Shown here piece after piece: positions 3,582-63,681 of a stretch of 64,000 nt of DNA. Origin of the DNA: Tetracentron sinense. Its lineage: Eukaryota; Streptophyta; Magnoliopsida; Trochodendrales; Trochodendraceae. The stretch lies in NCBI GenBank assembly GCA_015143295.1, contig CM026556.1, forward strand, positions 22,754,547 to 22,818,546, read 5' to 3'. Under the pieces are notes generated by a model. The model saw only the letters and a program-made list of their open reading frames with translations. It ran no database searches and was not told the origin of the DNA. A program made the translations under genes and the position numbers. The stretch's first letter is position 1, and every line of letters starts with the position of its first letter.

Positions 3582-3947
3582 TTAGGAATTAGATCCCTAG
3601 GGACTGAAGGTTGTTCTTTGTGTTGAACTTAGAACTCAGATGAACTATAAATTACGAGTTTGATACCGTGACATAATGGGAATTAAGCAAAGGCATTAAG
3701 TCTAGTTAGGGAGTCGTCTTCCAAGTATAGACTAAACATTTAGTCTTAGTTGAACTGGTTAAGGATTTAACCAAAAGTGAGAACTTAGCATCGCTAGGAT
3801 TTCTATGGTATGCTTATACTATTTTGTGTATATCTTTATTTTGTACGGTATACTTATATAGGCAAGATATGCTTGTTGAATTGCTACATTCAAAGAGCAT
3901 GGTTTTCCGTTAGACTCACGCTTTGCTATTGTCCTCAGGATTTGATT

Positions 3948-5210
3948 ATGAGGCGTGGCATCCGAGGTAGAGGGTATTAGACCCAAGGAAACGAAGGAGA
4001 TATTCCAATGGGAGATGAGCAGTCAGACTTGACTCAGATCCTTGGGGCTATAGCTGCAACTATAGCTAGGCTTGCAGACAGGGTTGATACTCCTGTTGCT
4101 GTACCTATACCTGTACCTCCTGTACATCACACAGCAGAACTCGAGGCATTCCGGAGACTTAGGCCTCCTACTTTCTATGGGACTATTAACCCCATGGTCG
4201 CAGAGGCTTGGGTCATGCAGTTGGAGAAGACTTTCAAGGTCCTTCACTGCACGGACGAGTAGAAAGTTGAGTGGGCTTCCTTCGTGATAGAAGGTGAAGC
4301 CGAGCAATGGTGGAGGTCTACTCTGAGACGGAGGGATGCTGCCAAGGTAGGGACACCATGGACTTGGGTAGAGTTTTTGGATGCATTTTATGAGCAGTAT
4401 TTCCTCGGGTTTGTGAAGGAGTAGAAGGAGAGGGAGTTTATGTTCTTGGAACAGTGAGAGATGAGCGTGGTCGAATACAAGGCCAAGTTCGTCGGACTAG
4501 CGAGATTTGCTCCGCATATGGTCGCATCGGAGAGCATGCGAGTCCAAAAGTTTGAGGGTGGATTGAGGTCCTTTATAAGGGATCGGGTTTCCATATTCCA
4601 AGTAGACACCTGGAAGGAGATTGTGGGCAAGGCGAAGATCGCTGAGAGAAATTCCGAGGAGTTTCTCATGAGGAGCGATAAGAGCCTAGAGAGAGGCGTG
4701 GTTAGAGCCCAGCTTAGTGGACCAGTACCACCAGAGAGAAGGGTTAGGTCTGCCTCGCACCAGACTGCTCCTTACCAAACCTCCCGGCCTGCACTGACAC
4801 AGGGTCCTCAGTTTGTACCGTAAATTCCTCGCCCTACTACCACTCTGACCACGAGAGGTGTACCGGCCATGTCTTCGACATCTACGTTTGATACTTGCAC
4901 TCACTGTGGCAAGAGTCACAAGATGGAGGAGTGTTGAAGACTCACTAGTGGGTGCTTTCACTGTGGTGATCGTAGTCACTCTATCAGAGATTGTCCACGC
5001 CGAAAATCACGAATCCAGTCTCAGGAGAACAGGCCCCTAGTTCGACAGGCCACACAAAAGGGGTCTTCTCAGACTTACCAGCCCTCGCAGCCCTCGTAGC
5101 CCACCCAGCCGCCTCAACAGGCGAATCGGGACAGAGCCTTCGCCTTATCTGGGAGAGACGCACATGCATTTGAGGATGTTATGCAAGGTACGCTCAAGTC
5201 GGAGTTGTTG
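3948..5210 (+). pseudogene. Fossil gag region, element 1
   Basis: The region has the plant gypsy gag layout: a start after CTCAGGATTTGATTATGAG; the retrotransposon gag domain with a RPPTFYG motif near 4163; and two CCHC zinc knuckles near 4894-4936 and 4951-4992. It is the structural (nucleocapsid) protein gene. No pol follows and the 3' LTR begins about 280 bp downstream. It is broken, with several lesions. Closest relatives in the window are the gags at 56832 and 34335. Confidence 0.85.
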
Positions 5211-5487: not shown

Positions 5488-8159
5488 TGTAAAACCCCAG
5501 AACTTGGGTTTAGTACTATACGGTGAATAGTGCAGTAAATAATGTTAGTGTACAATGCATGTAAAGGCCTAAGGCCTACCATGTGTTCTTGATATTGGGG
5601 AAAGTGAAGTAAGGATTATATATGTGTATGTTGAGTCTCCAAACAAGAGTATAATAATACTCAAGTATCTAGGGTATAAAATACCCTAAGTGTGAATGTA
5701 GAACCTAGGAACCTATTTCACAAGGTTGTGAATAGTGCCATGGGCACAAGACCTGTAAAGGCCGAAAGTCATTTATGTAACTTGGTTTATGAGGCATGAT
5801 GAGAATAGTTTAAATTAGTTTAAGCGTTATTGTTGAGTGTTTGGGATGAAGAAACAAGAGTATAACATACTCTATGTGTCGAGAATGAGGGATGTCTTTA
5901 CATTCCCTCAGCTTGTGTGAGCTCTAGTTTCGTCATCTCTTATTGGAATTGAGTGATTCTTAAGCCATTAGAATGATATTCAAACCTTCTCCAAGGTTCA
6001 TGCTTTACACTTTTTCAGATTTTGAGTGTAAGTTATGTCAAATATGAGGTTTTCGAAGGGTGGTTGGCTGTCAATTCAGCAGTCATTTTGTACCAGTCTA
6101 CTTGTGGGAAAATTTAGACTACGAAAAATTCAAAATTAAGAGTTGTACAAAACATGAAAGTTCTTCCTCTTTGAAATATGAATCCAACACAAGTTGAATC
6201 GTCAAAATCTGATAAACGAGTCAAAAGTTATAGCAGAAACATTAAAGTGGAAAAAACGGGAGAAATGAGGACCAGTCCTGTTGACCGGATTTGTGACCAA
6301 TCACCTGTGTTTTTGCCCTGCAGCTGACTCCTAGAGATATTTTAAGGGTGGTTTGGGGTTTGGCAACCACCAAACACTTATATAAGCTCATATTTCGTGC
6401 ATAAGGGTTGCTCAAACCTTAGAGAGAGTTGAGAGAGATTTTGGAAGAGGAAGAAGAAGATAAGCTTGGGTTTTCTTGTGTTGTTCTTAGTTTGAGTTGG
6501 TGATTAAAGGAGGAGCTTAGATCTTGCTTTTCAAGCTTGGATTTGGATTCCTCCAGCCTCTACAAACTCTGAAATTGAAGGAACTCAAACCTTCAAGAGG
6601 TAGAACAATCAACTAACTTGCCTTGCTATACTTTATTAATGTGTAGTTTGGTTTCTATGATTTAAGTAAATGGGTTTGATGAAACATAGGATGTGTTGCC
6701 CATATTTGTAATTCCTATATTATAAGTAAGATCTAAAGCATAATTTTGATAAGACAATTAGTAGCTAAACTCCAATAAATTGCTTTGCTATGAGTTGTAA
6801 ATGAATAGTAGATTTTGAGGTATGTTCTTGATAGAAATTGGATTTGATAATCATGTTTTACATGCTATGGATATTACTAGTGTGCTTGTATGATTGGATT
6901 TGTATAAGGATAGATGTTGAAAAGCATGGTTTTGTTCTAAGTTAAGGTTTTGGTTCAAAAAGGGTTTTGCTCCAAGTTAAGGTTTCAAAGCATGGTTTAC
7001 AAAAAAGGGTTTTTCTCAAAAGTGGCTTCGCTCAAAGAATGATTTTCGAGATTCAAGGGCTTAGGCCTTGCTTGTAAAGTCTTGCTTTGATTTTTGGACT
7101 TAGGGGAGTATAGCTCATTACTTGTAAAGTATCGCTTTGATTTCGACTCAGGGGGGTATACCTCCTGACTTTATACTCCTTGCTTGTAAAGTATCGCTTT
7201 GATTTTGACTCAAGGGAGTTTACTTCATTGCTTGTAAAGTATCGCTTTGATTTCAGACTCAAGGGAGTTTACCTCATTGCTTGTAAAGTATTGTTTTGTT
7301 TTGAACTCAAGGGAGTTTACCTCCTTGCTTGTAAAGTACCGCTTTGTTTTGAACTCAAGGGTGTTCTTAAGGGACCGCCTTGCTTGTAAAGTGTCGTTTC
7401 ATTTTGAACTCAAGGGAGTTTACCTCCTTGCTTGTAAAGTGCCGCTTTGTCTTGAACTCAAGAGTGTTCTTAAGGGACCGTCTGGCTTGTAAAGTATCGT
7501 TTTGTTATCGGTTTTGTGAATCACTCTAAGTATCAGGTTTGTTATGGCTCAAAGTATATGGTTAGTGAAATGCTCAAAGATATGTGCCTTGTAAAGAAAT
7601 GCTCACGTGCTATCTGTTTTATGAACTGCTCTAAGTTATATACTCGTTCTGCTTTGCTTTTGCCTGTTCGCTCTAATAAATGCATATGCTATCATTAATG
7701 GTTATAGTAATGCTAGTTAGTATTTTATATACGTTGAGTATTCCATGCTCAGCCAAATTGTTGACTTCGGTAGGTTTTGTGGACGCACGTGCTCCTAAGC
7801 CTTGGATAGAGGAGGAGTACTACGAGCTGGAGCTTGCCATGGATCATCACCAAGATGATGGAGCTCTAGATAGGAGGTCATATCTAGAATTTTGTTGAGT
7901 GATGTGTGGGAGAGGGTTATGTATTTTGAAAGTGAGGAATGTCCACTTTAGACTTTACATTTTGTATAAACTGTTAGTTCGGACTTGGAATACAAATCGC
8001 AGGTTTATGTTATAAAGAAATTTTTAGTTCCGCTTTTTAGTATGCCTTGTATGCTCTTGCAGGTTGTTATGTATGCCATATGTGTCATACGGGATGCATG
8101 ATATAGTGGTCACGAACTAAAGAATCCCTAACTCCTTGGGGGTATTTTGGATCGTGACA
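5488..8159 (+). repeat. 3' LTR of element 1
   Basis: 2672 bp, same order of parts as the 5' LTR. Core at about 6161-6250, TATA at about 6377-6384, minisatellite at about 7040-7495, hairpin (one wobble pair) at 7733-7753, acidic segment at 7775-7897. It is preceded by the purine tract AAGGGAGGGAGGA. Confidence 0.9.
7040..7495 (+). repeat. Minisatellite inside 3' LTR of element 1
   Basis: Same unit of about 55 bp as at 2455-2905, with a slightly different arrangement of copies, so the array has changed since insertion. Confidence 0.8.
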
Positions 8160-17829: not shown

Positions 17830-20239
17830 TGTAACGACCCCAAATTCCTACAAGGACTTTGGAATCGTCACATTACTTAAACCTGCTTAAAAACCATGAA
17901 TACAAGACATACTACACGAGTCTCCAAAAATGAGGATAATAAAATTCCGATCATAAAAAAAATCAAACCATCCTATACAATGATAGTCCACACACTATGG
18001 TTCCTCATAAATGAAATAGTCTAAAACATCCACACGGTAAATAACTAAGGCAACATCAACTAGAAGTCAAAAGTCTAATACAAGCATCTCTTCCAAAACA
18101 AAATGCTAAAACTGCTCAATAGGGATAACTGTCAAAATCCCTAGCCTCTTCCTCAGGAAGCTCACCTTCCTCCCCCTCTTCGACGTAAACCTCCTCGGTC
18201 CACCGTTCTCCTCCTAAACCTGAAGACAATAATAGGTCGACTGAGCATGGAATACTCAGTGGATAAACAAACTAACAACAACATAAAATAGCATGAGCAA
18301 TAACAATATCATAACTCGGTTTATTTAAGCTTAATCATAATAACTTCACGTAAAAAATAGGCATAATCAGAGTGCGTAGCATATAACATATCATAACATC
18401 ATCTTGACTCGTGTACTTGTGCAATTCTTATCCATGAACTTATCTTAACATATGCTTAGACTTATACATGCATGATTCATAGTATTTTGTCCCGGCAACG
18501 CATAATTCATAGTGTTCAACAACGCGTAGAGTGAATGTTCGTAATGGGAGGTCATTCTTTCATTGCGTAACATGAGTGCGACAACGCGTAGAATGGATGT
18601 TCATAGTGGGGGATCATTCTTTCATGGCATAATTCGTGACATGTTCATATCCAATCCATGCATACTTGTGAGACAAGTGGACTCAAGAGACTTGAATACT
18701 TACCATGCAAGTGCACGTGTGCTTGAGTGTCATGATTGGAATTCAAATGAGTCATCCCTTAGATTTCAATCTTCCGTTAGGAAACTCCGCTAGGTTACAT
18801 CTCCCTAGTTAGAGAATTCCCAACGTGGAGGATTTTCCTCTAAGGTTTGGCCTACTCGAAGACCGATCACCATACAAGTTAATAGAGCATAATTTATCAT
18901 AATAACACAATATTCATTTAACTTAATTTCTTCATAATCAAAAGCACCATACTAATATTTAGCATTCTCAGACATTTCAACAAACATGTAGAGTGCATTA
19001 ATTATAAATACTTTGCCATTTCCCGTTCTTAACATTTCATCACACAATAATCCATCCACACAACCCAAACATACTCCATATCTATACATTCATCCCAATC
19101 CTCCATAGTATTTCCCTTCCTCCGTTCAATCCATCCATAGCATAAATCTATTTTCATCTCTAGTAAGCTTAATCCATACATAATTAGGGAAAACAAATCA
19201 AATTATCATTTCTATCATTCATATTAAACTAATATTCATCAAACTTCATTAATAGAGTTGAGTTAGGGAGTTTATCGACCTTAGGAATCCTTCCCTTAGA
19301 TTCAAAACGCTCCCGAGGTAATTTGGGGAAGCTTTGAGGACGATCTCTAAGCTTTTCTCTCAATCTTCTAGCAATCCCCTTCTTCTCCAAGCAACCCTTC
19401 TCTCAAAACCCTAGGTTTCCTCCCCCTTTTTGCCAAATTAGGTTAGAAATAGGTAGAGCATTTTAATATCTCGAGTAGGACCCCCTATTTATAGCCCCAA
19501 GGGTTGAGGACCAAAAAGTCCTTACTAAAATTCTGTAAAAATCACGAAAGACCGAGCGATCGGTGGTTATGACCGATCGATCGGTTCTCAACTGAGCGAT
19601 CGGTGCTCTTGACCGGTCGATCGGTCAAAAAAGCACTCTCTGGAAATTTTTCCCATACAAAATTCTGGACCAGTCGATAGATACCGATCGATCGGTTTTG
19701 GACCGATCGATCGCTACTTCTGACAGAGCGATCGGTACTTTGCAGATTTTTGACCCGCTTTACTGTTTCGGCCATAACTTTTGACTCGTTCGTCGGATTT
19801 CGACGATTCAACTTGCGTTGGATTCGTCTTTCGAAAAAGAACATTTCTGACATTTAAAATTTCCAAATTCCCTTTTATTTATGGACCAAATTGTCCCCAA
19901 AGTTGATTGATCTGTAATTCCATCTGACAAAACCTCGGAAAACCCATTTTTGACTTAGCTTAGACTAAAAATAAGGAAAAACATTAAACATGAATCTCGA
20001 AGAGGGTTCCAATACCTTTCTAATGGTTTAAGAATCACTCAATTCCAATAAACGGTGTCAAAACTAGAGCTTCCTAAAGTTTAGAGTGTGATATGACATT
20101 CCTGAACTAGAAGTTTGATTAAACCTTAATCACACTACACCCATTAGATATACAATATAATAAACATTAAAACATCACAAGGACTATAATACCCCTAATG
20201 TAATGCAATAAAAACATGAAAAAAATTCGGGTCTCTACA
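17830..20239 (-). mobile_element. Solo LTR (gypsy, same group as element 2)
   Basis: 2410 bp, read on the minus strand from TGTAGAGACCC to GGGGTCGTTACA, flanked by the perfect target duplication ATACA (17825-17829 and 20240-20244). It has the shared order: core at 19764-19850; palindrome cluster at 19551-19737; TATA (CTATAAATAG) at 19485-19494; a two-copy repeat at 18460-18625; hairpin at 18240-18260; acidic segment at about 18125-18225. No internal region remains, so it arose by LTR-LTR recombination. Confidence 0.93.
18460..18625 (-). repeat. Two-copy tandem repeat in the solo LTR
   Basis: Two copies of a unit with CAACGCGTAGA, then ATGTTCRTARTGGG and ATCATTCTTTCAT, spaced about 70-75 bp. 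It sits where other LTR families here carry minisatellites. Confidence 0.65.
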
Positions 20240-33120: not shown

Positions 33121-34015
33121 CGCTGAAAGAAATTTACATTCCCGGCTCACAAGTCGCCTCAAGGGCACTAACCTCTGGCTCACAAATAAACAAGCAAGTC
33201 AAGTCAAGAATATGACAAGCGATTCCAACAAGAACAAGACAAGCATGCATGATTCTTACGAATGGAACCAAGACAAGAACAAGTTTTCAAACATAACGAA
33301 CAAGTTTTCAAACATGACAAGCAAGTTTGGAAAGAAACACGAAATGCTATTTTCAAGAATAAGACACGATTTTTAAACACAAGTTTTGTCGGAGTTTTCG
33401 CATTCATTCAAGCATGTCAAGATTATTACATTGCTTTACTTACAATGCTGTGAATGTTATATGCTGTTATTATTGTTTTAAATTGAAATGATGAATTATA
33501 TCTAGTTGCTCTTGTGTAATTGTTATTGCTATGGTTAGTTAGTGGCTTGTACTCGCTGAGTATTCCATGCTCAGCCGTACTTTTATGTTGGCAGGTGCAC
33601 GGGTCCCTTTTGACATTTGTGCCTCGGGTCCTTAGGTTGAGGAGGACTACAGTAAGGAAGAACCATATGAGGATTCGATAGTTGAGCCTCAGGCTGAGGC
33701 GAGGGACTTAGACTATTGGCCCCACGGGGGTGATTATTGAGCGAGATAGGGTTGTACTATGTCTTTTGTATTTTGATAAGTGGGCATGTCCACCTTTGAC
33801 TTGATATGTTTTGTATAAAACTTGGAATACTGATAAGGTTATATAAGAAAAGAAAAAGTTGGTTCGCGCTTCCGCACTTATGTTTAGCTTCCGCATTCTG
33901 ATTTTTGTTGTTATTATGTCATGTTAGCCTTGTTCATTACAGGATGGTTTGGTAGGTATGAACAGTCACCTCTAAAGTATCCCTTAACTCCTAGGGAGTA
34001 TTTTGGGGCGCGACA
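31647..34015 (+). repeat. 5' LTR of element 2
   Basis: 2369 bp, from TGTAGTGCCC to GGGGCGCGACA. Parts: core at 31755-31845; palindrome cluster at 31875-32060; C run at 32092-32111; TATATAAG at 32120-32127; a two-copy repeat (GATAAAGCCG units, 32880-33050) and (TA)n at 33068-33118; hairpin at 33555-33575; acidic segment at 33597-33740. Confidence 0.92.
33068..33118. repeat. (TA)n microsatellite in 5' LTR of element 2
   Basis: About 25 TA units. The 3' LTR has about 15 units at 40727-40756. Confidence 0.95.
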
Positions 34016-34031: not shown

Positions 34032-34334
34032 CTAGGCATTAGAGTCCCTAGGGTCATTTAGAACTGATACCAGGATTGAACAAGGCATTAGAGTCATTTT
34101 AAAGAGTTGTATTCCAAGTATGGACTAACGAGTTTGTCCTAGTTAAATAAGTTGAACTTCAACAAAACTTAGAGTCCTACGCTAGGAACATGGATTGTAT
34201 GTTATGTCATTGTTATGCAAACCATGTGTGCATTGTTCTATGCTTAGCGAATATGTATTGAGTGAATTGCGAAATTGTTACTAAATGCGTATCCAAGTTA
34301 GACTCATGTGTATTGTCGTTCTCAGGATTTAATC

Positions 34335-35518
34335 ATGAGACGCAATGCTCGGGGTCGCGGATACAACACGAGAGGAAATGGAAGTGATGCTCCATCGGGT
34401 GATGATCAACCTGACTTTGCCCAAGCTTTTGCTTTAATAGTCGAGACTTTGGCTATGCTAGCGGCAAGGCAACCGGCTACTCCTCCTAATGCCACACTTA
34501 TAACCGCTCCTCCAAATCGAGCACAAGCCGGAATAGAGGCTTTTTGGAGGATGAGGCCTCCAACATTTTGTGGAAGCATTGATCCACTTGTGGCCGAATG
34601 ATGGATTCGGTAATTAGAATAGATATTTTCAGTATTGGCGCCTACTGAGGCAGAGAGGGTCACTTGGGCCGCCTTTATGCTTGAAGGCGAGGCTGATCAT
34701 TGGTGGAGGTCCACACTTATGACCCGAGATTTGACCCGACAGGGTCAAGAGTGGACATGGGGTGAATTCTTGAACGTTTTCTACAAGAAGTGCTTCCCCG
34801 TCGGGATGAAAGAAAAGAAAGAAGTTGAGTTCATTACCCTGGAGCAAGGTAACATATCAGTGGCCGCTTATGAGGCTAAGTTTTCGAAGCTATCTAGATT
34901 TGCTCCTCACATGATAGCTACCGAGGCAATGAAGGCCCGAAAATTCGGAGGGGGTTGAAGGCCTACCTCAAGGATTGAGTTTCGATGTTCCGGTATGAGA
35001 CATATGCCGAATTAGAAGACAAGACACTTTTGGCAGAGTCGAATTTTGAGGAATTCTTCAAGAGAAGAGGAATGGAGAAAAGCCAATCCAGTAGTTTAGG
35101 AGGGAAAAGAGCAAGGACTAGTTCTTATCAGTCTTCAGGGCCGGCACCATCACAGAGACTATATTCTGCACGACAAGCCCTTCGCCCTTTTGTTCCACCG
35201 GCTTTTCGCCTGGCCCCCACTCAGGCTCCTAGCCCCGCAATAACGCAGGCGTCGGGATATGCACCTTCCACCTATTCTTATAATATCTGCACCCTTTGTG
35301 GAAGGAGACATTTAGCCGGCGAGTGTCGAAAGGCTATCGGAAGTTGTTTTCATTGTGGTGACCAAGGTCACATGATTAGAGATTGCTCCCGTCATCACTT
35401 GCCAGCTCAGTCTCAGGGCAATAGGCCCCCTGTTAGGCAGGCATCGCAGCAAAGCTCTTCACCGTCATCGAGGCCCACACAGTCTACCCAGCCTCCTCGC
35501 CAAGCCACCCAGGGCTGA
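34335..35518 (+). pseudogene. Fossil gag, element 2
   Basis: Starts after TTCTCAGGATTTAATCATGAG. It shows the gag domain (RMRPPTF near 34555; HWWRS near 34700) and two CCHC knuckles near 35290-35328 and 35346-35387, followed by a Q/S/P-rich tail. It would package the element RNA. It is broken. It is related to the gags of elements 1 and 3, but clearly diverged. Confidence 0.9.
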
Positions 35519-35709
35519 GTTTTTGCCCTGTCAGAGAGAGACGCATGTGCATCAGACGATGTCGTGCAAGGTACGCAAGAATGTTAGAGTTTTAAGTTGT
35601 GAATGATTTTTATTATGTGATGTGTTGTTATTTATACTATGGGTTACCTATGTATGATGTGTGTTATTATTTGAAATCTATTGATATTAGCTATTTAATC
35701 GCACAGGCG

Positions 35710-38700
35710 CTTTATTAGTGAATGAATGCCTAGCCCGAGTGTTGATCGACACGGCGTCCACTCACTCCTTTATCTCACCTAGTTTTACAAAGGGCTTTTC
35801 AACTGAGTCTACTGCGTTGGAGCAGGAGTTAACTATTGCGACTCCTTTTGGCAAGTTAGTTGATACGGACAAGATATTAAAGGACTGTGTGGTTCAAGTG
35901 GGGCAAAATGAACTATTGGCCGACCTCATCATCCTGGATTTCCAAGACTTGGATTTCGACGTCATCTTAGGGATGAATTGGTTGTCAAACCATTACAGTC
36001 ATGTTGCATGTTTTGAAAAGATGGTGAACTTCAGGCCGGAAGGAGTTAAGCCATTTCACTTTCGAGGATTGAGAGAAAGGGATATTGCCCGCCACGCAGC
36101 TTTGAGCATAGCAAACTCAGAGGCACCGAACTCCTCAACCATTCCGGTTGTGAGTGAGTTCTTGGATGTGTTTTCGGAGGAATTGCTCGGATTGCCTCCT
36201 GATAGAGAAATCGAGTTCGCTATAGAGCTTACTCCGGGCACAGCTCCAATTTCAAGAGCTCCATATAGAATGGCCCTGATTGAACTCAATGAGTTGAAGG
36301 TGCAGTTAGAAGAACTGCAAAGCCTGTGATTCATTAGACCAAGTGTCTCACCGTGGGGTGCCCCAGTGTTATTTGTGAAGAAGAAAGACGGTTCAATGCG
36401 TATGTGTATTGATTACCGATAGTTAAATAAGGTCACGATCAAGAACCGTTATCCTTTACCACGGATAGATGATTTATTCGAACAGTTGAAGGGAGCGAGA
36501 TTCTTCTCCAAAATTGATCTAAAGTTGGGGTATCATCAATTGAAGATCAAGGAGGGAGATGTTTCGAAGACGACTTTTAGGACTCGGTATGGGCACTATG
36601 AGTTCCTTATTATGCCTTTTGGTTTGACGAATACACCAGCGGCGTTCATGGATTTGATGAACCGGGTGTTTAGACTGTATCTCGATAAATGTGTCGTGGT
36701 GTTTGTAGATGACATTTTGGTGTACTCCCCGACATGGGAGGATCATGATCGAGATCTTCGCCTTACTCTTGCGACGCTTCGAGAGCACAAGTTGTATGTC
36801 AAGCTAAGTAAGTGCGAATTTTGGTTGGAGAAGGTGGCTTTCCTTGGCCATGTGGTGTCTATAGAAGGCATTTCAGTAGATCCAGCTAAGGTAGAGGCCG
36901 TATTGAATTGGGAAAGACCCAGAAGCATCACCGAGATTCGGAGTTTCGTCGGGTTGGCAGGCTATTACCGGAGATTTGTGGAGGAATTCTCCAGTTTAGC
37001 TGCACCTCTCACTTACTTGACAAGGAAAAATGTCAAGTTTAGTTGGAGTGACAAATGTGAAGTTAGCTTCCAGGAGTTGAAGAAACACCTTACTACAACT
37101 CCCGTACTCACAGTACCATCCGGGAGTGGTGGTTTTGTCGTTTACAGTGACGCCTCTCACGTGGGGTTGGGATGCGTGCTCATGCAGCATGGTAAGATCA
37201 TTGCCTATGCCTCAAGGCAATTGAAAGAGTATGAGAGGAATTACCCTACACACGACTTAGAGCTCACCACTGTTGTGTTTGCATTGAAAATATGGCGACA
37301 TTATCTCTACGGGGAACAGTTTGAGGTGTTCACAGATCACAAGAGTTTAAAGTATTTGTTTTTCCAGAAGGAGTTGAATCTGAGGCAAAGAAGATGGGTA
37401 GAGTTTTTGAAAGACTATGAGTGCTCTATCTAATACCACCCGGGCAAAGCAAACGTGGTGGTGGATGTATTGAGTAGGAAGTCACTGGGGCTTGTTGCAT
37501 ATATGATGGTGCGAGAGTGGAAGTTGTTGGAGGATGCCTCCAACCTTGACATTTGCTTCGGTCATCCTACTCATGGGCCATTGATGGAAAATCTCACGGT
37601 GAAACCGTGCATCATTGATCGGATCCGGGAGTTACGAGCAGCGGATGCCGAATTAATTGCTTTCCGTGACAAAGCGGTTAGCAAGGGAAGTGATGACTTC
37701 GCTATGAAGGGAGATGGATCTATCACTTTCAAAGGGAGAACATGTATCCCCGCCAACGAAGAGCTTAAAAAAGAGATCTTAGACGAAGCCCACCGGTCCA
37801 AGTATACCATTCACCCTGGGGGTACCAAAATGTATAGAAACTTGAAGGGGTACTTTTGGTGGCGTAACATGAAGAAGGAAGTAGCGGAGTTTGTATCTAG
37901 GTGTTTGGTGTGTCAACAAGTTAAAGCTCAACACATGAGACCAGTAGGTCTATTGCAGTCCCTCCTTGTTCCTGAGGAGAAATGGGAGAACATCTCTATG
38001 GACTTCATTGTGGGTTCGCCACGGACGGCAAGAAAATTTGATGCTATATGGATTGTAGTCGACAGACTGACGAAGTCCGCCCATTTCTTGCCATACCGGA
38101 CTAACTTCAATTCAAATCAGTTAGCAGCACTGTACATCAAGGAAATCGTTCGGTTGCACGGGGTGCCAGTTAGCATTGTGTCAGATCGGGACCCGAGATT
38201 CACATCCAAGTTTTGGAAAAGCTTTCAAAGTGCAATGGGTTCCCGGTTGGACTTTAGCACGGCCTTTCATCCACAGAGCGATGGGTAAACCGAGAGAGTG
38301 AATCAGGTTATTGAAGATATGCTCCGGGCATGTATGCTAGACTTCAAGGGAAGTTGGGAAGACCACTTGACTTTGGTGGAATTCGCTTACAATAATAGTT
38401 ATCAAGCGAGCATTCAAATGGTGCCTTTTGAGGCTTTCTACAGGAGAAGTTGTAGATCCCCTTTGTATTGGGATGAAGTCGAAGAAAAGAAGGTATTGGA
38501 CCCTGAATTGATTGAGCAGACTGCTGATAGGGTCAAGCTTATCCGGGAGAGGTTGAAGACCGCACAGGATCGACAGAAGAGCTATGCCGACACCCGGACG
38601 AGAGATCTTGAATTCCGGGTTGGTGAGTTTGTGTTCGTCAAGATTTCACCAACAAAGGGTGTTATGAGATTTGGGAAACGAGGAAAGCTCAGTCCGAGGT

Positions 38701-39026
38701 ACGTGAGTCCGTTCGAGATCATCACTAGAATCGGTGAGGTGGCTTACCGTGTTGCCTTACCTGCTCATATGGCGGCGGTCCACAACATGTTTTACATCTC
38801 CATGCTCCGGAAGTACATCCCGAATCCATCCCATGTCATCGAGCTTGATCTGGTTGAGATTCGGGAGGATCTCACATTAGTTGAGCAACCAGTGCAGATC
38901 TTGAACAGGCGAGATCAAGTCTTGCGCAACAAGACCATTCCATTAGTTCTTATAAGATGGCAACACCATTCGATAGAAGAAGCTACATGGGAACAAGAGA
39001 CCGAAGTGAGAGAAAAATATCCTTAA
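35710..39026 (+). pseudogene. Fossil pol, element 2 (PR-RT-RH-INT-chromodomain)
   Basis: Order: aspartic protease (LIDTASTHSFIS near 35743); reverse transcriptase (about 36130-36900, [10 protein letters not shown] near 36700); RNase H (about 36950-37440, [13 protein letters not shown]); integrase zinc finger (37800-37930, HRSK...CLVCQQ) and catalytic core (about 37980-38440); then a GPY/F-like region and a chromodomain near 38900-39026 (IPLVLIRWQ, EEATWEQE). A chromodomain at the end of integrase places it in the Tekay/Del chromoviruses. Broken by a few lesions. Confidence 0.93.
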
Positions 39027-40721: not shown

Positions 40722-40756
<35 letters not shown>

Positions 40757-41630
40757 CGCTGAAGGCAATTTACATTCCCAGCTCACAAGTCGTCTCAAGG
40801 GCACTAACCTCTGGCTCACAAGTAAACAAGCAAGTCAAGTCAAGAACATGACAAGTGATTCCAACAAGAACAAGACAAGCATGCATGATTCTTACAAACG
40901 AAATCAAAACAAGAACAAGTTTTCAAACATGACAAACAAGTTTTTAAAGAAACATGAAAGACTATTTTCAAGAATAAGACATGATTTTTAAGCACAAGTT
41001 TTATCGGAGTTTTCGCATTCATTCAAGTATGTCAAGATTATTACATTGTTTTACTTACAATGCTATGAATGTCATATGCTGTTATTATTGTTTTAAATTG
41101 AAATGATGAATTATATCTCGTTTCTCTTGTGTGATTGTTATTGCTATGGTTAGTTAGTGGCTTGTACTCGCTGAGTATTCCATGCTCAGCTGTACTTTTA
41201 TGTCGGCAGATGCACGGATCCCTTTTGACATTTGTGCCCTGGGTCCTTAGGTTGAGGAGGACTACGGCGAGGAAGAATCATATGAGGATTCGGTAGTTGA
41301 GCCTCAGGCTGAGACGAAAGACTTAGACTATTGGCCCCACGGGGGTGATTATTGAGCGAGATAGGGTTGTATTATGTCTTTTGTATTTTGATAGGTGGGC
41401 ATGTCCACCTTTGCCTTGATATGTTTTGTATAAAACTTAGAATACTGATAAGGTTATATAAGAAAAGAAAAAGTTGCTTCACGCTTCCGCACTCATGTTT
41501 AGCTTCAGCACTCTGATTTTTGTTGTTATTATATCATGTTAGCCTTGTTCATTACAGGATGGTTTGGCAGGTACGAACAGTCACCTCTAAAGTATCCCTT
41601 AACTTCTAAGGGGTATGTTGGAGCGCGACA
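39127..41630 (+). repeat. 3' LTR of element 2 with 193-bp prefix
   Basis: Starts TGTAGCGCCCC at 39127. After 67 bp it switches to a 126-bp copy (39194-39319) of the DNA just outside the 5' LTR (31521-31646), then restarts as a full LTR at 39320. The full part has core at 39418-39515, palindromes at 39547-39715, C run at 39760-39774, (TA)n at 40727-40756, hairpin at 41170-41190 and an acidic segment at about 41210-41355. Confidence 0.92.
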
Positions 41631-51690: not shown

Positions 51691-54108
51691 TAACGACCCA
51701 AAACCCACCCTAGGAGTTAGAGTGAATCTTGGACGACTTGTCATGACCTACATGACATGCTTAGCAAACCATCCTGCAAAATACACTAAGCATATACAAA
51801 GAGGGCATAATAGTGGAAACATAAACTACAAAACAAAGCGGAAGACTAACCAAACCTCTAAGTATATATACATATGCATGACCCAAGTTTGAACAAAATG
51901 AAATTTACCAAAGAAAGTGTGGACAGGCCCGCCAAAATACATGAATATACTCTCTCAAACTCACCCATAGCTCACTCACTCAAAATCTACCACCACCTAA
52001 TAGTAGCCTTCTACTGGAGGTTCCTCCACAGGTTCCTCAACGAACTCCTCTTCTACCCAGGGGCCAAGAGCACAAATGTCGAATGGAGCGGTAGCTCCCT
52101 TATTACCTGCCAACATAAATATACGGCTGAGCATGAAATACTCAGCGTGTACCAAATACTAACCAACAGTCATAGCAACATAGCAATATAGAAATATAAA
52201 TAAGCAAAAAGCAGTTCATATGATTAACAGGGAAAACAACCAGTTTATAGTTCATGCTTGAATCATATCGAAGTCAGAAAAAATCTAGAAATCATCTTGT
52301 ACTGTACTTGACTTGAAATACTCAGTTCATGCGTGAAAACTCATCATGTTTATCTTGCTTATCTATTATGCGCGTCTAATCGTGCGTGTCATGTCATGCG
52401 TGTCTAATCATGCATGTCATGTCATGTTCTTGCTTATCTTATGCGGGACTGGGTATGCCTAGCTGCTGTTCATAGGCCGTTGCAACTAGTATCCCCTATG
52501 CATGGACTGGGTATGCCTAGCTTCCGTTCATAGACCATAGCAACTAGTATCCCCTATGCTGTACTGGGTATGCCTAGCTGTCGTTCATAGACCGTCACAA
52601 CTAGTATCCCCTATGCATGGATTGGGTATGCCTAGCTGCCGTTCATAGGCCGTCGCAACTAGTATCCCCTATGCTGGACTGCGAATGCCTAGCTGTCGTT
52701 CATAGACCATCACAACTAGTATCCCCTATGCATGGACTGGGTATACCGAGCTGCCGTTCATAGGCTGTCGCAACTAGTTTCCCCTATGCATGGACTCGGT
52801 ATGCCTAGCTGTCGTTCATAGACCGTCGCAACTAGTATCCCCTATGCATGGACTGGGTATGCCTAGCTGCCGTTCATAGGCCGTCACAACTAGTATCCCC
52901 TATGCATGGACTGGGTATGCCTAACTGTCATTCATAGGCCATCACAACTATTATCCCCTCTGCTGGACTGGGTATGCCTAGCTGTCGTTCATAGACCGTC
53001 GCAACTAGTATCCCCTATGCATGGACTGGGTATGCTTAGCTACCATTCATAGGCCATCACAACTAGTATCCCCTATGCATAGACTGGGTATGCCTAGCTA
53101 CCGTTCATAGGCTGTCGCAACTAGTATCCCCTATGCTGGACTGGGTATGCCTAGCTACCGTTCATAGACCGTCACAACTAGTATCCCCTATGCATGGACT
53201 GGGTATGCCTAGCTGCCGTTCATAGGCCGTCGCAACTAGTATCCCCTATGCATGGACTTGTGATATCGGAGCAAAGCATATCTTAGGATATGCCCTACTC
53301 CTAAGCAAAACATATCTTAGGATATGTCCTACCCCTATTACTTGAAAAACCCGATAAACCATGTCATGCATGCCGTGCTCGTGAAATCGTGTACGCTTAA
53401 CTCATGAAAATTTAATAAAATATAATAGGCTCAAAATCATTCAAGGCAACATTTATTATCAAGGCAATTAAATCTACAAGTATGAAATTCTAGGAAGCAA
53501 ATAAATCTACAAGTATGCAATTCTAGAAAGCGAATAAATCTATACTCATACGATTCTAGAAAGCGAGTAACACACTATCAAAAACCCTAGGAATTTTCAT
53601 ATGCTTAAAATATGCTTTTCTTAACTTATAATTCCTTTTTCTTCACCTTGGCATTTCATCAAACATATGGTGTGTACATTATGGTTAATACCTAAATCTT
53701 ACTTTTCTAGATGGGTTAAGCTCATAGCACACATGTGTGTTCATTATGAATACAATGTCCTTCCCATTTCGTTCAGCACAACACATACACAAGGCATCCA
53801 ATCGCACATACACATCCACACACCCATCCACCTTAATCCATTCATCCCATCTCATTATCTTGCTTAGGATTTAGGGAAAATCCTAAAATGAAGGAAAACA
53901 AAGAGAAGAGATGAACTAGAAGGGTATTATACGGTACCGACCTTCAAATAGGAGAGAATCCTATGAAAATGGTCGTAGAAATTGTTGTTCGTGCTTGGAG
54001 GAGGTGCTCCTTGCTTGCCTTGCCTTGGATTTGAAGAATCCAAGGATTTGAAGATGATCCAACAGGAGCTTGGGCTTGGAGATGGAGACCCACACTCTAG
54101 GATTTGGG
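51691..54108 (-). mobile_element. Truncated gypsy LTR, same family as 57443-59790
   Basis: On the minus strand it ends in a decayed GGGTTTTGGGTCGTTAG at 51691. It holds the hairpin (52126-52146), an acidic segment (about 52010-52110) and a large minisatellite (52440-53265). Sequence to 54108 matches the leader half of the 57443-59790 LTR. The promoter half is absent; the sequence is cut at 54108 where another LTR fragment begins in the opposite orientation. Confidence 0.85.
52440..53265. repeat. 58-bp minisatellite, about 14 copies
   Basis: Units begin GGACTGGGTATGCCTAGCTG and end CTAGTATCCCCTATGC. The period is 57-60 bp with high identity between units, and some alternate CCGTTCATAGGCCG with TCGTTCATAGACCG. 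Not coding, and no spacers, so not CRISPR. Confidence 0.97.
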
Positions 54109-55605
54109 AAAAGATGGTACTTATTGAGATGTTTTATATGTTAGTATCCAAAGATGAAAAGCGTGTTAAAAGCCACAGGTTTTGGGAAAAACAAGTAGAA
54201 AAACCTAATTTTCAATGAGATTGGATGATGTAATGTTATTGTATATGGATTATTGTGATGGGTGAATTATGTTTAGTATTGGACATATGACCATATGTAA
54301 AGTGTTTACTTTAATGTCTATCATATTATATCACAATTGCTACACGGACACTTATGCATATGCATGATCGAGCTTTTTATATTATGGGTATCCAAAAGAA
54401 GAAGTACATGTATATAAAATGAAATACAAGAATAAGAAGAAGAAGAGTATAAGATGCAAATGAACCACATGAAAAATATAAGATGCAAATGAACCAAATG
54501 AACAGTACAAGAAGCAAAAGAAGTATAAGAAAAGAACAAGTAAAAGATATATACGGAAAGTACAAGAAGCACAAGATGTATATGAAAAGTACAAGAAGCA
54601 CAAGATGTTACAGGAAGTACAAGAAGATGGAAAGTATACGGAAAAAGCAAACGGGGATGCAATGATAGCAGGCCGCCTGAAAGGGAAATGAATACTGGCA
54701 TCGGACTCCGATGATAGTAGGCCGCTCGGAAGGAAGTTGGATACTAGTCATCTACTCCGAAGGAAGCCAAAGGTGAGGAGAACATTAGGCCACCCAGCTT
54801 ACGTGGGTACGGGTACTAGTTGTCCGACTCTGGAGGTAACAAATGATGAATACTAAGGTATTTTAAATAACCGTACATGATAGGATAATAAAAGATAAAA
54901 GCTAAGGTATTTTAAATACCCGTATATGCAATGGTACAAGATGATAAAAGATGACAAGAAGATGTTTTCGACAAAAGATGATAAGAAGATGTAAAAGACA
55001 AAAGATGAAAAGAAGATGTTTTTCAATAGTATTTTTCTAAGATATATGCACATGATATGATTTTGTTTTCCGCTCTCTGATTTCAGAAATTCATGTGAAA
55101 TGATAAACTGTGATATATGTTGAATTACTGTTTATGATATTACTATCTAGTGGTTTGTATACGCTGAGTATTCCATGCTCAGCTGTACATATTATGTCGG
55201 TAGGTCCCTTCAATATTGTGGCAAACGTCCTCAGGAGCCGTGGGTCGAGGAATGTTATGTTGAGGAGGAGGAGACTTGGGGTAGTCTTCAGGAGCAGAGG
55301 ACTCAGGAGGAGCTGAGGGCTTTTATTAGGTGGCCCCATCATGAGTGATGAGAGGGAGAGACTTGTATATAAATTTTGTTGAGCGACTATGTTCGCTCTT
55401 TATTTTGGGTTTTGTATAAACTGAGATATATTATGTATAGAAATTTTATAGTATACTTCCGCTACCATAAATAGATTCGTAATACACTTCCGCTATCACA
55501 GGTTCTATATGTTGTATAGGATTCATATGTTATATAGGGTGGTTTGGTAATGAGTTCACGTCGCCAAAGTATCCTAACTCCCAGGGGGTATTTTGGGTCA
55601 TGACA
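54109..55605 (+). repeat. Truncated 5' LTR of element 3
   Basis: Only the last 1497 bp remain. It has an AAGTACAAGAAG-type repeat region (54440-54660), a second AAGATGATAAAAGA-type repeat (54930-55020), hairpin (55163-55183), acidic segment (55205-55345) and end TTTTGGGTCATGACA. Confidence 0.9.
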
Positions 55606-55609
55606 AGTT

Positions 55610-57442: not shown

Positions 57443-59790
57443 TGTAGCAGCTTGGAACTTTTTTCCATGTATTGGAACCCGTGCCAATGTGTTAAGCCTT
57501 TGTAATCCTCCTAATTCTATGAAATGAGAAAATTTAAAGAACTCTAAGTGCTAAGAAGTAGTATTCCTAAGTCGGATATGTCGAAAACCCAAGTTACTGA
57601 ATCTCATTTGCGGATCAGTCAACTTTAAGAGAAATTTGGTCAATAAATAAGGAATAAATTGGAAATTCTAACATACTAGAAATGTTCCCCTTCGAAAGAC
57701 GAATCCAACGCAAGTTGAATCATCAAAATCGGGCAACCGAGTCAAAAGTTATGGCCAAATTACCAAAGTGGGGAAACTGGGAGAAAAACAACAAAATCTG
57801 GAGGGTGCAATCGATCGCAAGTCAGGTGCGATCGATCGCATATAGGCGAACTGGGTCCCAAACTCTCTGGGTCATATGCGATAGATGGATTCCCCAGGTG
57901 CGATAAATCGCAAGGATCTGCGATCGATCACAAGAGTATGCGATCGATCGCATGCAGGGAAAATCAGACCAAAAACGTTTGGGTTCATGTGCTATAGAAC
58001 GCATCCAGGTGCGATTGATCGCAAGGACCTGCGATCGATCGTAGACAAGTGTGCGATCGATCGCATGCAGTAGTGGTTCACCAATTCAGTGGTACGTGGC
58101 AGATTCTGAATTTGAGGGTTTTTAACCCTTGATCTATTTGAGGGTTCTCATTTGGGGGCTTTTCTAAACCAAGGGAAAGGAAGAGAAGGGAGAGAAAGAG
58201 GGTGTTTCCAAGAGGGTTTTGGATTGGAGAGAAGGATTAGCTCCAAATCTCAAGATCTTCCTAATCCAAGCTCAAGCAACTTGTGGAGTTCTCCTCCAAG
58301 CTCGGCAACGCCTTCCACGAGCAACTTCATCACCCTATTCAGGTCAATACCCTATACTACCCTCCTAGTTCATATCTTCTTCATTTTATGATTTTCCCTA
58401 AATTCTAAGTAAGATAATGAGATGGGATGAATGGATGAAGGTGGATGGTTGTGTGGATGTGTATGGGCGATTGGATGCCGTGTGTATGTGTTGTGATGAA
58501 CAAAAACGGGAAGGGCATTGTATTAATAATAAATACGCATATATGCTATGAGCTTAACCCATCTAGAAAAGCAAGAATTAGGTGTTAACCATAATGAACA
58601 TACCAAATGTTTGATGAAATGCCACAATGAAGAAAATGAGTTGTGAATTAAGAAATGTATGCTTAAAAGCTTATGAAAATTGCTAGGGTTTATGATAGTG
58701 TGATTGTTTGCTTTCCCTAAAATGGTATGAATATTTACTTGTTTCACTTAATGATGTGCTATGTATTGTTGAAATCCCCAAATGGCATATTTAACTTTAA
58801 ATGAAAGTATGCACACAATCCCACGAGCACGGCATGCATGACATGGTTTACCAATGATTTTCAAAAATAAGGATGTTAGAGGTGGGACATGTCTTACGAT
58901 ATGTTTTACCTCGCTTTTGACAAGAGGACAAGAACAAGCATCGCATAGGAGGGAGTTCACACTTCCCTCCCTTCCATGAGGGGTCTCCCCTCACTCATAA
59001 GTACATCACATTAAAGAAGGGTCTCCCTTCCCTCTCAAGTTCATCACATTAAAGAAGGGTCTCCCTTCCCTCTCAAGCGCATCTCACAAGTGCAACTCAC
59101 AAGTACATGAGCATGTTTAAATTCCAAGCAAGCAAGCATGACACGCATGACATGACACGCTCGACAAGATAGACATGACAAGTTTTCAAGCATGAAACGA
59201 GTATTTTAAGTCAAGTCAATGCACGATGATTTCCAAAGTTTTATCGGTTTTTATGTGATGCAAGCATGAATATAAACTACTTTACTTTCCTGTTACCTTC
59301 TAAATTGCTTCCCACTTTATATATTGCTATTGTTGTGCTATGACTATTGGTTAGTATTTGGTACCCGCTGAGTATTCCATGCTCAGCCGTACTTCTCATG
59401 TCGGCAGGTGATAGTGGCCCTTGGGTAGAAGAAGAGTACATTGAGGAACCTGTGGAGGAACCTCCCGTAGAGGGCTACTACTAGGTGGTAGACTCTGAGT
59501 GAGTTAGTGGGTGTGAGCTTGAGAGAGAGTATGCTTATGTATTTTGGTGGGCCTGTCCAAACTTTCTTTCGTGTTATCATTTTGTATGACTTGGATCATG
59601 TATGTAGATATACTTAGAGGTTTTTGGGTTGGACTTCCACTGTGTTTTGTAGTTTATGTTTCCGCTATTTTGTCCTCTTTGTATATGCTCCAGGAATTTT
59701 TGCAGGTTGGTTTGTCAAGCATGTCATGTAGGTCATGGCAAGTCGTCCAGGATTCACTCTAACTCCTAGGGTGGGTTTTGGGTCGCGACA
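57443..59790 (+). mobile_element. Solo LTR nested in gag of element 3
   Basis: 2348 bp, TGTAGCAGCTTGG to GGGTCGCGACA, target duplication GAAGG/AAAGG (57438-57442 and 59791-59795, one mismatch). Core at 57680-57775, TGCGATCGATCGCA palindrome cluster at 57805-58070, a tandem repeat (GAAGGGTCTCCCTTCCCTC units, 58955-59090), hairpin at 59367-59387, acidic segment at 59400-59482. No clear TATA box was found. Confidence 0.92.
58955..59090 (+). repeat. Short minisatellite in the nested solo LTR
   Basis: Three imperfect units of about 40 bp with GGGTCTCCCTTCCCTCTCAAG and ATCACATTAAAG. It lies where the related LTR at 51691 has its 58-bp array; the two arrays are unrelated. Confidence 0.75.
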
Positions 59791-59795: not shown

Positions 59796-60440
59796 TGGCT
59801 TGAGACCTTCCATTAGAGAGCGAGTTATTATACTGCAGGTAGAAACCTGGAAAGAAATTGTACGAAAGCGAAGATTACTGAGAGACATTTAGAGGAGTCT
59901 CTCCTGATTAGTGACAATAGCCGACGGAGAGGCATGGTTCGAGGCCAGACCAGTGGGCCAATGCCACCAGAGAGGAGAGTCAGACCTTCCCCGTACCAGA
60001 TTGTTATGTATGTGCCAGTTCAGAGGTCCCCATTTGCACTACAGGTTCCCCATCCTACTACTTCACAAGCCACGGGATATGAGTCTTCTGGATCGACTAC
60101 CTCTAGGATGTGTAGCCACTGTGGGAGAAATCACAAGGAGGATTTTCGTACACTCACAGGTGCATGTTATCACTGTGGTGATCGGGGACATCAGTTCAGA
60201 GATTGCCCATGCCGCCAGTTGTCATCGCAAGGGAATAGGCCTCCGGCCCGACAAGCCACACAGCAGGGGTCTTCTCAGGCTTCTAGGCCCCCGGGTAGAC
60301 TGGTTCCTCAGCAGAGGTATCCGCATGCCTCTGGTCCCCCACAACCCATACAGCTGCCTCAACAGGCGAATCAGGGAAGAGTTTTTGCCCTGACCAAGCA
60401 AGGCGCACATGCATCCGAGAATGTTGTGCAAGGTACGCCC
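59796..60440 (+). pseudogene. Fossil gag, element 3, second part
   Basis: Continues the gag after the solo LTR: a basic linker, a first zinc-knuckle-like block (CSHCGRNHK near 60115), a second CCHC knuckle (CYHCGDRGHQFRDC, 60168-60209), then a Q/P/S-rich tail. The 3' LTR starts about 200 bp later. Confidence 0.87.
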
Positions 60441-60644: not shown

Positions 60645-63637
60645 TGTAGAGCCCCAAAATTTGGGATTCACTGTTCATGTGAACAGTGCCCTTATATATT
60701 GTGTGTGAAGGCCTAAGGCCTTACATAGTGTTCTTGGTATTATGGTGAGTCAAGTGAGGGTTTTAGGTATGTAATTGGAGTCTCAAAATGAGAGTATAAA
60801 GATGCTCTAAGTGGTTAAAAATAAGGGTATAAAATACCCAAGGTGTTTAATGGATTGTAACTGAATAGTGTAGTGAATAGTGCTAGTGCACAAGGCATAA
60901 AGGGGGTCTCTCATGCATGTGGGTGTGAATTTAATGATCACCTAAGTGGGTTACAAACCTATGGGGAACGAGTCATGAGGTGTGAGTAGGGTATTGGACC
61001 CAAGGGAAAAGAGTGTGAAAGCACTTGAAGTGTTCTAGGTGTTGAAGTGATATGTTTTGGCATTTCCCTCAACTTTATGAAGCTTTAGTTGAGTCACCGT
61101 TGATCGAAATCAAGTGATTCTTGAATTTTTCGAAAGTTATTGGAACCCTCTATGAGGTTCATGTTGATCATTTTTCTGGATTTTGAGTCAGGTTTAAGTC
61201 AAACGCCCGATTTCCAAAATCGGGTCTGCAGCAAATCTGGGTTGCTGAAACCCATTTTCGGATCAGTCAGCTTTAGGGGAAAATTCATCCATGAAGAAAG
61301 AAAAATTAGGGTTTTTGTAAAACATCAAAGTTGTTCCTCTTCGAAATACGAATCCAATGCAAGTTGAATCTTCAAAATCCGATAAGCGAGTCAAAAGTTA
61401 TGGTCAAAATACCAAAATGGGAAAAATCTGGAAAACATTCTGTCAGAGCTACGATCGATCGTAGAAGACCTATAAATGATTGTAAAGCTTCAGAAATGCT
61501 GAAAACTCACCAGGGAAGTTACGATCGATCGTAGGAAGCCTACGAACAATCGTAAACCCCGAAAACTGGGCAAAATCACTGTAAAGCCTACGATCGATCG
61601 TAGGAAGCCTACAAACGATCGTAGGTGCATGAATCAAACTCTTTAGTGCGTGATTTTTTAGGGTTTTCACCCCTTGGCCTATAAATAGGGGACCTTTTGG
61701 GGGTTTTGGGTTACCCTAAACCTAGAGAGAGATCTTAGAAGAGAAAGGAAGAAAGTGGAGGATTTTTAAGAGGGGTTTTTGGATTTGGAGAGGAAAAGCA
61801 CAAATCAAGCCTTGACCTCGCTCCTACATGCCATTTGAGCTTGGATCTTCATCCACAAGCTTGGGTTTCACTTATAGTAGCTTCCTTAATCCTTTTCAAG
61901 CATTGGATCAAAGAGATTTCATCCCATAAGGTAGATACACTCTACTAGGTTCTAATTTCATAAACCCTTAATGACAAACATGATTTTCTTGACAAATATA
62001 GATGTATATGGCCTTATATATGTGTAAATCAACTCTACTAACTATTGATTTCATGAACCCTCTTATATACCAAGATAAAATCCTATGAATGATGATGTGA
62101 GTTAAATGTGATGATGCTATGCTTTCAACCAACAAATAAAAGATGGTACTTATATAGATGTTTTATATGTTAGTATCCAAAGATGAAAAGCATGTTAAAA
62201 GCCACAAGTTTTGGGAAAAACAAGTATAAAAAAACCTAATTTTCAATGTGATTGGATGATGTAATGTTATTGTATATGGATTATTGTGATGGATGAATTA
62301 TGTTTAGTATTGGACATATGACCATATGTAAAGTGTTTACTTTAATGTCTACCATGTTATATCACAATTGCTACACGGACACTTATGCATATGCATGATC
62401 GAGGTTTTTATATTATGGGTATCCAAAAGAAGTACATGTATATAAAATGAAATACAAGAATAAGAAGAAGAAGAGTATAAGATGCAAATGAACCACATGA
62501 AAAGTATAAGATGCAAATGAACCAAATGAACAGTATAAGAAGCAAAAGAAGTATAAGAAAAGCACAAGAAGTAAAAGATGTATACAGAAAGTACAAGAAG
62601 CATAAGATGTATATGGAAAGTACAAGAAGTACAAGATGTTATAGGAAGTACAAGAAGATGGAAAGTATACGGAAAAAGCCGACGGGGATGCGATGATAGC
62701 AGGCCGCCTGAAAGGGAAATGGATACTAGCATCGAACTCCGATGATAGCAGGCTGCCCGGAAGGGAGATGGATACTGGTCGTCTACTCTGAAGGTAGCCA
62801 AAGGTGAGGAGAACATTAGGCCACCCAGCTTACGTGGGTACGGGTACTAGTTATCCGACTCCAGAGGTAGCAAATGATGAATACCAAGGTATTTTAAATA
62901 CCCGTACATGATAAGATAATAAAATATAAAAGCCAAGGTATTTTAAATACCCGTATATGCAATGGTACAAGATGATAAAAGATGACAAGAAGATGTTTTC
63001 GACAAAAGATGATAAGAAGATGTAAAAGACAAAAGATGAAAAGAAGATGTTTTCCGATAGTATTTTTCCGAGATATATGCACATGATATGATTTTTTTTT
63101 CCGCTCTCTGATTTCAAAAATGCATGTGAAATGATGAACTGTGATATATGTTGGATTACAGTTTATGATATTACTATCTAGTGGTTTGTATATACTGAGT
63201 ATTCCATGCTCAGCCGTATATATTATATCGGTAGGTCCCTTCGATATCTGTGGCAAGCGTCCTCAGGAGCCATGGGTCGAGGAAGGTTATGTTGAGGAGG
63301 AGGAGACTTGGGATAGTCTTCAGGAGCAGAGGGCTCAGGAGGAGCTGAGGGCTGTTGTTAGGTGGCCCCATCATGAGTGATGAGAGGAAGAGACTTGTAT
63401 ATAAATTTTGTTGAGCGAATATGTTCACTCTTTATTTTGGGTTATGTATAAACTGAGATATATTAAGTATAGAAATTTTATAATACACTTCCGCTATCAT
63501 ATATAGATTCGTATTACGCTTCTGCTATCACAGGTTCTATATGTTGTACAGGATTCATATGTTATATAGAGTAGTTTGGTAATGAGTTCACGTTGCCAAA
63601 GTATCCTAACTCCTAGGGGGTATTTTGGGTCGTGACA
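60645..63637 (+). repeat. 3' LTR of element 3
   Basis: 2993 bp from TGTAGAGCCCC to TTTTGGGTCGTGACA, preceded by the purine tract AAAGGGGGGAGGA. Core at 61328-61420, TACGATCGATCGTA palindrome cluster at 61449-61625, TATAAATAG at 61680-61688, repeat region at 62450-62660, hairpin at 63194-63214, acidic segment at 63235-63380. Confidence 0.93.
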
Positions 63638-63681
63638 AGTGGGGGGTTTAGCGGAACCCTACCTGTTTATTAAAATTAAGA

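Follow-up and report, generated by a model that had tools for sequence, protein, structure and literature searches.

An acidic coding exon appears to be kept in the long terminal repeats (LTRs) of a large clan of plant retrotransposons, where it probably becomes, by splicing, the C-terminal end of Gag. The window, by which we mean the whole 64,000-nt stretch of Tetracentron sinense contig CM026556.1 that was analysed, is crowded with Ty3/gypsy LTR elements, and the exon is described here from the 3′ LTR of one of them, element C (copy C3). In this LTR, read from the sequence as 60645..63637 on the plus strand (TGTAGAGCCCC ... GGGTCGTGACA), a hairpin, CTGAGTATTCCATGCTCAG (63195..63213, +), stops 21 nt short of the last base of an AG. 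The 21-nt stretch that follows it, a candidate 3′ splice site (63214..63234, +), has a terminal TAG, and the acidic exon starts at the acceptor-like AG 63233-63234 and ends at a stop (63235..63380, +). It is composed of GT, the two bases completing a phase-1 codon, followed by 47 codons and the stop TGA at 63378-63380, and its translation reads PFDICGKRPQEPWVEEGYVEEEETWDSLQEQRAQEELRAVVRWPHHE up to that stop.

An earlier note on this DNA had described a recurring acidic segment after the hairpin of each LTR. The recurrence was confirmed, as the peptide was found behind the hairpin in all six hairpin-bearing LTR families of the window, nine copies in total. Three elements have LTR pairs detected by BLAST, all on the plus strand: element A (820-3565 / ~5488-8159, with the exon at 3181..3305 and 7774..7898), element B (31521-34015 / 39194-41630, exon at 33595..33740 and 41210..41355, each interrupted by a stop where W is expected) and element C (54109-55608 / 62138-63640). 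Besides the stop in B, one small correction concerns the copy in the element C 5′ LTR (55204..55348, +), which is frameshifted relative to its 3′ partner. The remaining copies are in LTR E, a solo LTR (57443-59790, +, flanks GAAGG / AAAGG) that sits within the internal part of element C (exon at 59408..59484, +), and in LTRs D and F, which are on the minus strand and not among the three pairs (exons at 51997..52106 and 18116..18219, respectively). At the 3′ LTR of element B, two LTR-start-like sequences (TGTAGCGCCC) were seen at 39127 and 39320, 193 nt apart.

A search tolerating as many as 3 mismatches located nine hairpins in the window, where 0.06 would be expected, and these nine copies differ by at most one base. 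Genome-wide counts, here and below, refer to the 1.16-Gb assembly (1,479 contigs), with reversed patterns as controls. The hairpin had 20,347 exact matches and the codon pattern of the peptide core 15,541, versus 0 for either reversed pattern. Folding predicted a stem of 8-9 bp with a 3-nt loop in the four copies folded, whose stability was only modestly above that of shuffled sequences (z −1.6 to −2.4). No known RNA family was matched in the window at Rfam gathering thresholds, and five tails matched no Pfam family at E values up to 10.

All nine window copies have the same layout: the hairpin, 20-21 nt closing in CAG or TAG, and then the acidic frame. The generality of this layout was assessed on 50 distinct hairpin copies, pooled from the window and from fetched loci, where the hairpin ends 20-23 nt before the acceptor. 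The AG was in place in 48 of them (CAG/GT 36, TAG/GT 8, CAG/AT 2, other 2; slashes mark splice points). The distance from the AG to the conserved Trp (W) was measured in 41 copies, 9 of the 50 having been dropped because acceptor or core was unrecognisable. Nine different distances were seen, between 14 and 47, and in 39 copies the distance equalled 2 modulo 3 (lengths of 14, 17, 26, 29, 38, 44 and 47); the exceptions were 28 and 37, the latter belonging to the frameshifted 5′ LTR copy of element C. The distance from hairpin to W was distributed across the three frames as 22:18:1. As the AG-to-Trp phase is constant while the hairpin-to-W distance splits, the reading frame starts at the AG and no earlier. 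The acidic frame has no conserved ATG or other start codon, and must therefore join an upstream coding exon in phase 1. The segment thus looks like a coding exon behind a phase-1 3′ splice site, and the position of the hairpin suggests a control of access to the acceptor or to the branch point.

Protein-level constraint on the exon is supported by this acceptor-set frame, by a codon-position bias and by gaps in multiples of three. Synonymous (pS) and non-synonymous (pN) differences were compared in 12 of the 15 family pairs and in two of the three LTR pairs, over a protein alignment, which favours low pN. Between families, pS was 0.53-1.13 versus a pN of 0.17-0.45, and the close pair D/E gave 0.34 and 0.09. 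The 5′/3′ LTR pairs, which report divergence after insertion, had no synonymous excess (pS 0.04 and pN 0.08 for A, 0.09 and 0.08 for B); pair C was left out because of its frameshift. When the six families were aligned as DNA only, codon positions 1, 2 and 3 differed by 0.37, 0.47 and 0.59 (P = 0.022 over columns), a weaker test than the one on 17 core types with a similarity below 85%, in which the values were 0.249, 0.297 and 0.537 (P = 0.001 over columns). In an alignment-free count of an 8-codon core, freeing position 3 gave 12,419 matches in the genome, freeing position 1 gave 4,211 and freeing position 2 gave 3,774, the reversed controls being 0. Finally, gap lengths in MAFFT pairs were multiples of three in 22/31 cases inside the exon vs 28/111 outside (the pairs are not independent), and inside the exon three MAFFT gap settings gave 22/31, 22/31 and 22/29. 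A pairwise count with loose penalties was uninformative (40/110 inside, 115/397 outside), and the MAFFT pairs were used instead. The comparison of synonymous with non-synonymous changes proposed in the earlier note came out as predicted there, third positions being the most variable between families. The note had spoken of past constraint at the protein level: the constraint is upheld, the word "past" is too weak, as many sampled genomic copies of the exon are still open, others being diverged or broken.

The elements carrying the acidic exon are chromoviruses or their gag-only kin. The pieces of element B match in order gag, zinc knuckle, RVP_2, RVT_1, RT_RNaseH, Integrase_H2C2, rve, SH3_Tf2-1 and Chromo (Pfam). 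Its gag region runs from the ATG to a phase-1 donor (34335..35570, +) in a frame broken by stops, and its pol, also in pieces, covers aspartic protease, reverse transcriptase (RT), RNase H (RH), integrase (INT) and chromodomain (35708..39026, +). This is the order PR-RT-RH-INT (PR being the protease) with a C-terminal chromodomain that defines chromoviruses, with rve (25.7 of 32.6 bits) and Chromo (20.1 of 25.1 bits) both under their curated cut-offs. From the long LTRs and the pol C-terminus, the clan may belong to the Tekay (Del) clade. Elements A and C have two LTRs and gag without pol, as TR-GAG elements do, with matches below curated cut-offs (A gag 18.3 of 24.1 bits, C zinc knuckle 18.9 of 20.8 bits). 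No pol match was found in the 4 open reading frame (ORF) pieces scanned from these two elements, and their internal parts align with one another by BLAST.

In elements A, B and C, the end of gag reads ...V(V/M)Q G, and the frame reaches a phase-1 donor, CAAG/GTACGC. The 19-mer containing this donor has 2,845 exact matches in the genome (reversed control 0), and the donor was in phase 1 in the eight loci fetched with it. A small intron separates gag from protease. In element B it spans 137 nt (35571..35707, +, GTACGC...CACAG), and in the eight fetched loci it measures 124-148 nt and is rich in T (38-45% vs 22-28% in the flanks). The acceptor position is in phase 1, with CAG retained in four of the eight loci and decayed in the other four. 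A primer site was recognisable in 3 of 22 sampled hairpin copies; all three have the same phase-1 donor together with a TTTCAG acceptor, and two of them have ~757 open codons behind the intron.

The intron is precisely absent at the predicted junction in 18 genomic copies (reversed control 0). These fall into three subtypes (GCGC 10, GTTC 6, GATC 2) on 10 contigs, and the junction was read in frame in 10 of 10 copies fetched from the 18. On the strength of these 18 copies, the gag-end donor is probably in use, and reverse transcription of a spliced RNA would be the simplest source of the intron-less copies. Besides element B, the intron and its loss were recorded for loci L009-L016 and L087-L096 of a chromovirus clan.

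The reading that we favour, with a probability of roughly 0.6, is that the gag-end donor is also joined to the acceptor of the 3′ LTR, giving a Gag with an acidic tail. The promoter of the element probably lies in the LTR, well upstream. The gag frame ends at the CAAG/GTACGC donor, which leaves a single base of the last codon (phase 1). Part of the transcripts would have this donor joined to the protease exon ~135 nt further on, in phase 1, yielding Gag-Pol. In others the splice would skip pol altogether and use the 3′ LTR acceptor that follows the hairpin, again in phase 1. The product would be Gag with an acidic tail of 24-47 residues, bearing Trp and Tyr, followed by a stop, and poly(A) addition would take place beyond the acidic exon. 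The hairpin, next to the acceptor, may tune the choice between acceptors. The tailed protein would most likely serve as a form of Gag that differs in how it binds RNA, assembles or is exported.

Left unspliced, the frame stops at most ~20 codons into the small intron in elements A, B, C and in a fetched locus (L021). The gag-only elements A and C retain both donor (5184..5193 and 60429..60438, respectively, both +) and exon, with ~300 nt and ~210 nt devoid of pol between the donor and the 3′ LTR; as pol is gone, no coding partner other than the LTR exon was seen for their donor. The earlier note had offered two suggestions for the segment, of which "the end of a spliced product" was the better one, in agreement with the frame, codon-position and gap tests. 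Going further, we propose tentatively, without quite calling it probable, that in a clan of about twenty thousand hairpin LTR copies three products arise from the gag-end donor, one of them with a C-terminus encoded by the 3′ LTR exon. Tailed Gag would then be a separate functional protein, acting in assembly, RNA export or the sorting of genomic from translated RNA, and kept even by gag-only parasites, while an ATG-free exon 1 and an ATG-rich intron would separate translated from packaged RNAs.

The acidic exon might instead be the last exon of another spliced protein, whose partner donor would lie inside gag/pol or in a small unrecognised ORF. The data demand only phase 1 and an upstream start, and the scan for pol donors, in which no phase-1 donor-like site was found, covered the last 600 pol bases of one element. 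We nevertheless consider this unlikely. Elements A and C retain the exon without pol, and in them no other plus-strand ORF of at least 90 aa starts between the gag-end donor and the 3′ LTR, whereas the gag-end donor has both evidence of use and the correct phase. A run-on from pol was rejected, the pol stop being ~100 nt before the 3′ LTR in element B and in one other pol end.

A second alternative places the segment in the 5′ leader, a first LTR exon being spliced to it in the 5′ LTR and the segment being read as a leader ORF or a portion of one. Such an exon can be predicted. In the element C 3′ LTR, a TATA box, CTATAAATAGGGG (61680..61687, +), lies ~1.5 kb upstream of the hairpin, and leader exon 1 would span 61705..61930 (+), its start placed from the TATA box and its donor, AAG/GTAGATAC, following 61930. 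LTR F, element A and the 5′ LTR of element B likewise have a TATA-like box, ~1.2-1.5 kb ahead of the hairpin. A donor-like end of exon 1, AAG/GT or similar, is present upstream of the same acceptor in the window families (after 1929, 32301, 61930 and 58342 on the plus strand, and after 19280 and 53942 on the minus strand) and in 12 of 20 fetched loci. In several families it lies within a small predicted hairpin (GTTAGTA-CACCC-TACTAAC, GTAGA..TCTAC). CGATCG-rich short repeats were observed upstream of the promoter in several otherwise unlike LTR families (19542-19740, 39570-39715, 57800-58070 and 61449-61640), and the intron part of LTR D contains ~14 tandem copies of a 58-bp unit (52440-53258).

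The content of this exon speaks against its being joined to the acidic one, which makes the leader alternative improbable. The 170 nt preceding the leader donor contain 4 ATG versus 59.8 expected by shuffling (20 distinct copies, several of the same family), and ATG density in the 200 nt after the donor is 64 per kb. No in-frame ATG was found in the open phase-1 stretch of the exon in any of the 20 copies, and in 6 of them the phase-1 frame is shut within one codon of the donor. Three elements were profiled between the tail acceptor and the start of gag (A, B, L021), and none showed a depletion of ATG there, so that a leader of this kind would be a hindrance to gag. A genomic junction of exon 1 with the acidic exon was looked for in two families and not found. 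An upstream ORF of the leader, the other suggestion of the earlier note, is thus unsupported, with no conserved ATG, and was rejected together with a leader-exon fusion. The translated leader may rather be exon 1 joined to an acceptor just ahead of gag, skipping the primer site and the acidic exon. A candidate acceptor, YTCAG/GA..., directly precedes the gag ATG in A, B and L021: TCCTCAG in element A, behind which the gag exon begins (GATTTGATT ATG; 3939..3950, +), and TCTCAG/GATTTAATC ATG in element B (34326-34337, +), CTCAG being conserved. No genomic copy of the junction between LTR exon 1 and gag was found; such zeros are weak, because without its primer site or polypurine tract an RNA is not expected to be re-integrated.

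A non-protein reading, in which the stretch, being rich in purines, acts as an RNA motif or splicing enhancer and its GAG/GAA repeats yield the peptide only incidentally, can point to abundant GAGGA units, typical of exonic enhancers, adjoining the candidate splice site, but it is the least probable of all, as a purine motif would neither make position 3 variable nor hold the frame across many indel lengths, and the conserved W and Y, like the PFD(I/V)C block where present, are not purine-rich.

Some points weigh against an acidic tail on Gag. The join between gag and tail is deduced from genomic sequence, and a match in phase between donor and acceptor has by itself 1 chance in 3. No genomic copy of the junction between gag donor and acidic exon was found, and a search with a narrower gap also gave 0; this is weak evidence either way, because such an RNA would be without polypurine tract and the element's own reverse transcriptase should leave no copy of it. 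The intron-less copies could descend from an intron-less ancestor. A tail is not needed merely to obtain an excess of Gag, as unspliced RNA already terminates Gag in the intron. Just 4 of 20 fetched loci had a TATA-like box, at 0.7-2.1 kb. The tail is broken or strongly diverged in several sampled copies (e.g. L028, L036, L038, L040, L050). Lastly, element B, in which PFDIC and then VEEDY had been noticed earlier, has a stop at the W position of that peptide in both LTRs (P-stop-VEEDY).

Coding sequence in a 3′ LTR, expressed from spliced RNA, has precedents in vertebrate retroviruses: MMTV (mouse mammary tumour virus) Sag and lentiviral Nef are encoded wholly or partly by the 3′ LTR. These proteins are unrelated to the tail, and have their own start codon. 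Among plant elements, rice CRR is probably chromoviral. The comparisons that follow rest on excerpts of the papers cited. Closest in layout are elements that produce a separate Gag RNA. Barley BARE1, a Ty1/copia element, makes a spliced, subgenomic Gag-only mRNA with its junction at the gag end, from which 104 nt are removed and in which a stop follows three residues on (PMC3735527); the present elements are Ty3/gypsy, and their second exon would be coding, conserved and located in the 3′ LTR. In Arabidopsis EVADE, alternative splicing behind gag likewise parts Gag (shGAG) from Gag-Pol, but it is coupled to premature polyadenylation within the element, and the excerpt describes no LTR-encoded tail (PMC8892269). 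Drosophila copia splices out 2.9 kb of pol sequence for its Gag mRNA, and belongs to another superfamily; rice CRR, a Ty3/gypsy element, has spliced transcripts. A coding tail or exon in the LTR is mentioned for neither of them in the available account (both as described in PMC3735527).

Other systems share single features with the present one. In Ogre (Ty3/gypsy, Tat), some of the transcripts lose an intron between ORFs of the polyprotein, which opens the remainder of pol to translation; this intron lies between gag-pro and RT-RH-INT, whereas the intron described here lies between gag and protease and is accompanied by a second candidate acceptor in the LTR (PMC6317226). The Ty3/gypsy element Cer1 of C. 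elegans encodes CERV, a second protein made from a spliced mRNA with gag-derived exons and a distal exon. In contrast to the tail, its last exon is in the polyprotein frame and is not described in the excerpt as lying in the LTR, and the protein has 517 residues and is required for RNA export (PMC10309623). TR-GAG elements resemble A and C in having LTRs and gag without pol, and a study with spliced GAG RNAs of triticale reports intron-bearing gag RNAs; the elements there are mostly Ty1/copia, and the part of the text available does not state splicing to an LTR exon (PMC7765848). A 2025 review names Ogre and EVADE as exceptions among plant LTR retrotransposons, which are otherwise usually described as intron-less (PMC12786077). 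An LTR-encoded Gag tail was not met in the excerpted literature on chromovirus/Tekay introns, spliced gag and LTR-internal coding exons. A search of viral contigs with the hairpin pattern and the RT piece of element B gave 0 loci.

If the favoured reading is true, this chromovirus clan would combine an LTR-borne coding exon with several candidate acceptors and with a gag donor that has left copies lacking the intron. Such an exon would add a gene that annotation likely overlooks because of its location in an LTR and its lack of a start codon. It would account for a block of conservation common to the LTRs of otherwise unlike families, and would make the Gag/Pol balance of Ty3/gypsy elements directly testable.

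A few other features of the window were recorded. A Ty1/copia element in pieces (gag, pre-integrase, integrase, SH3) occupies 46080-50980 on the minus strand, and a fold-back element with a 132-nt inverted repeat, 94% complementary and with 98 nt between its arms, lies at 24734-25095. An open ORF of 788 aa at 12385-14751 encodes a lectin receptor kinase (B_lectin, PAN, kinase), of which a partial, diverged duplicate is found ~9.6 kb away, at 23151-24604.
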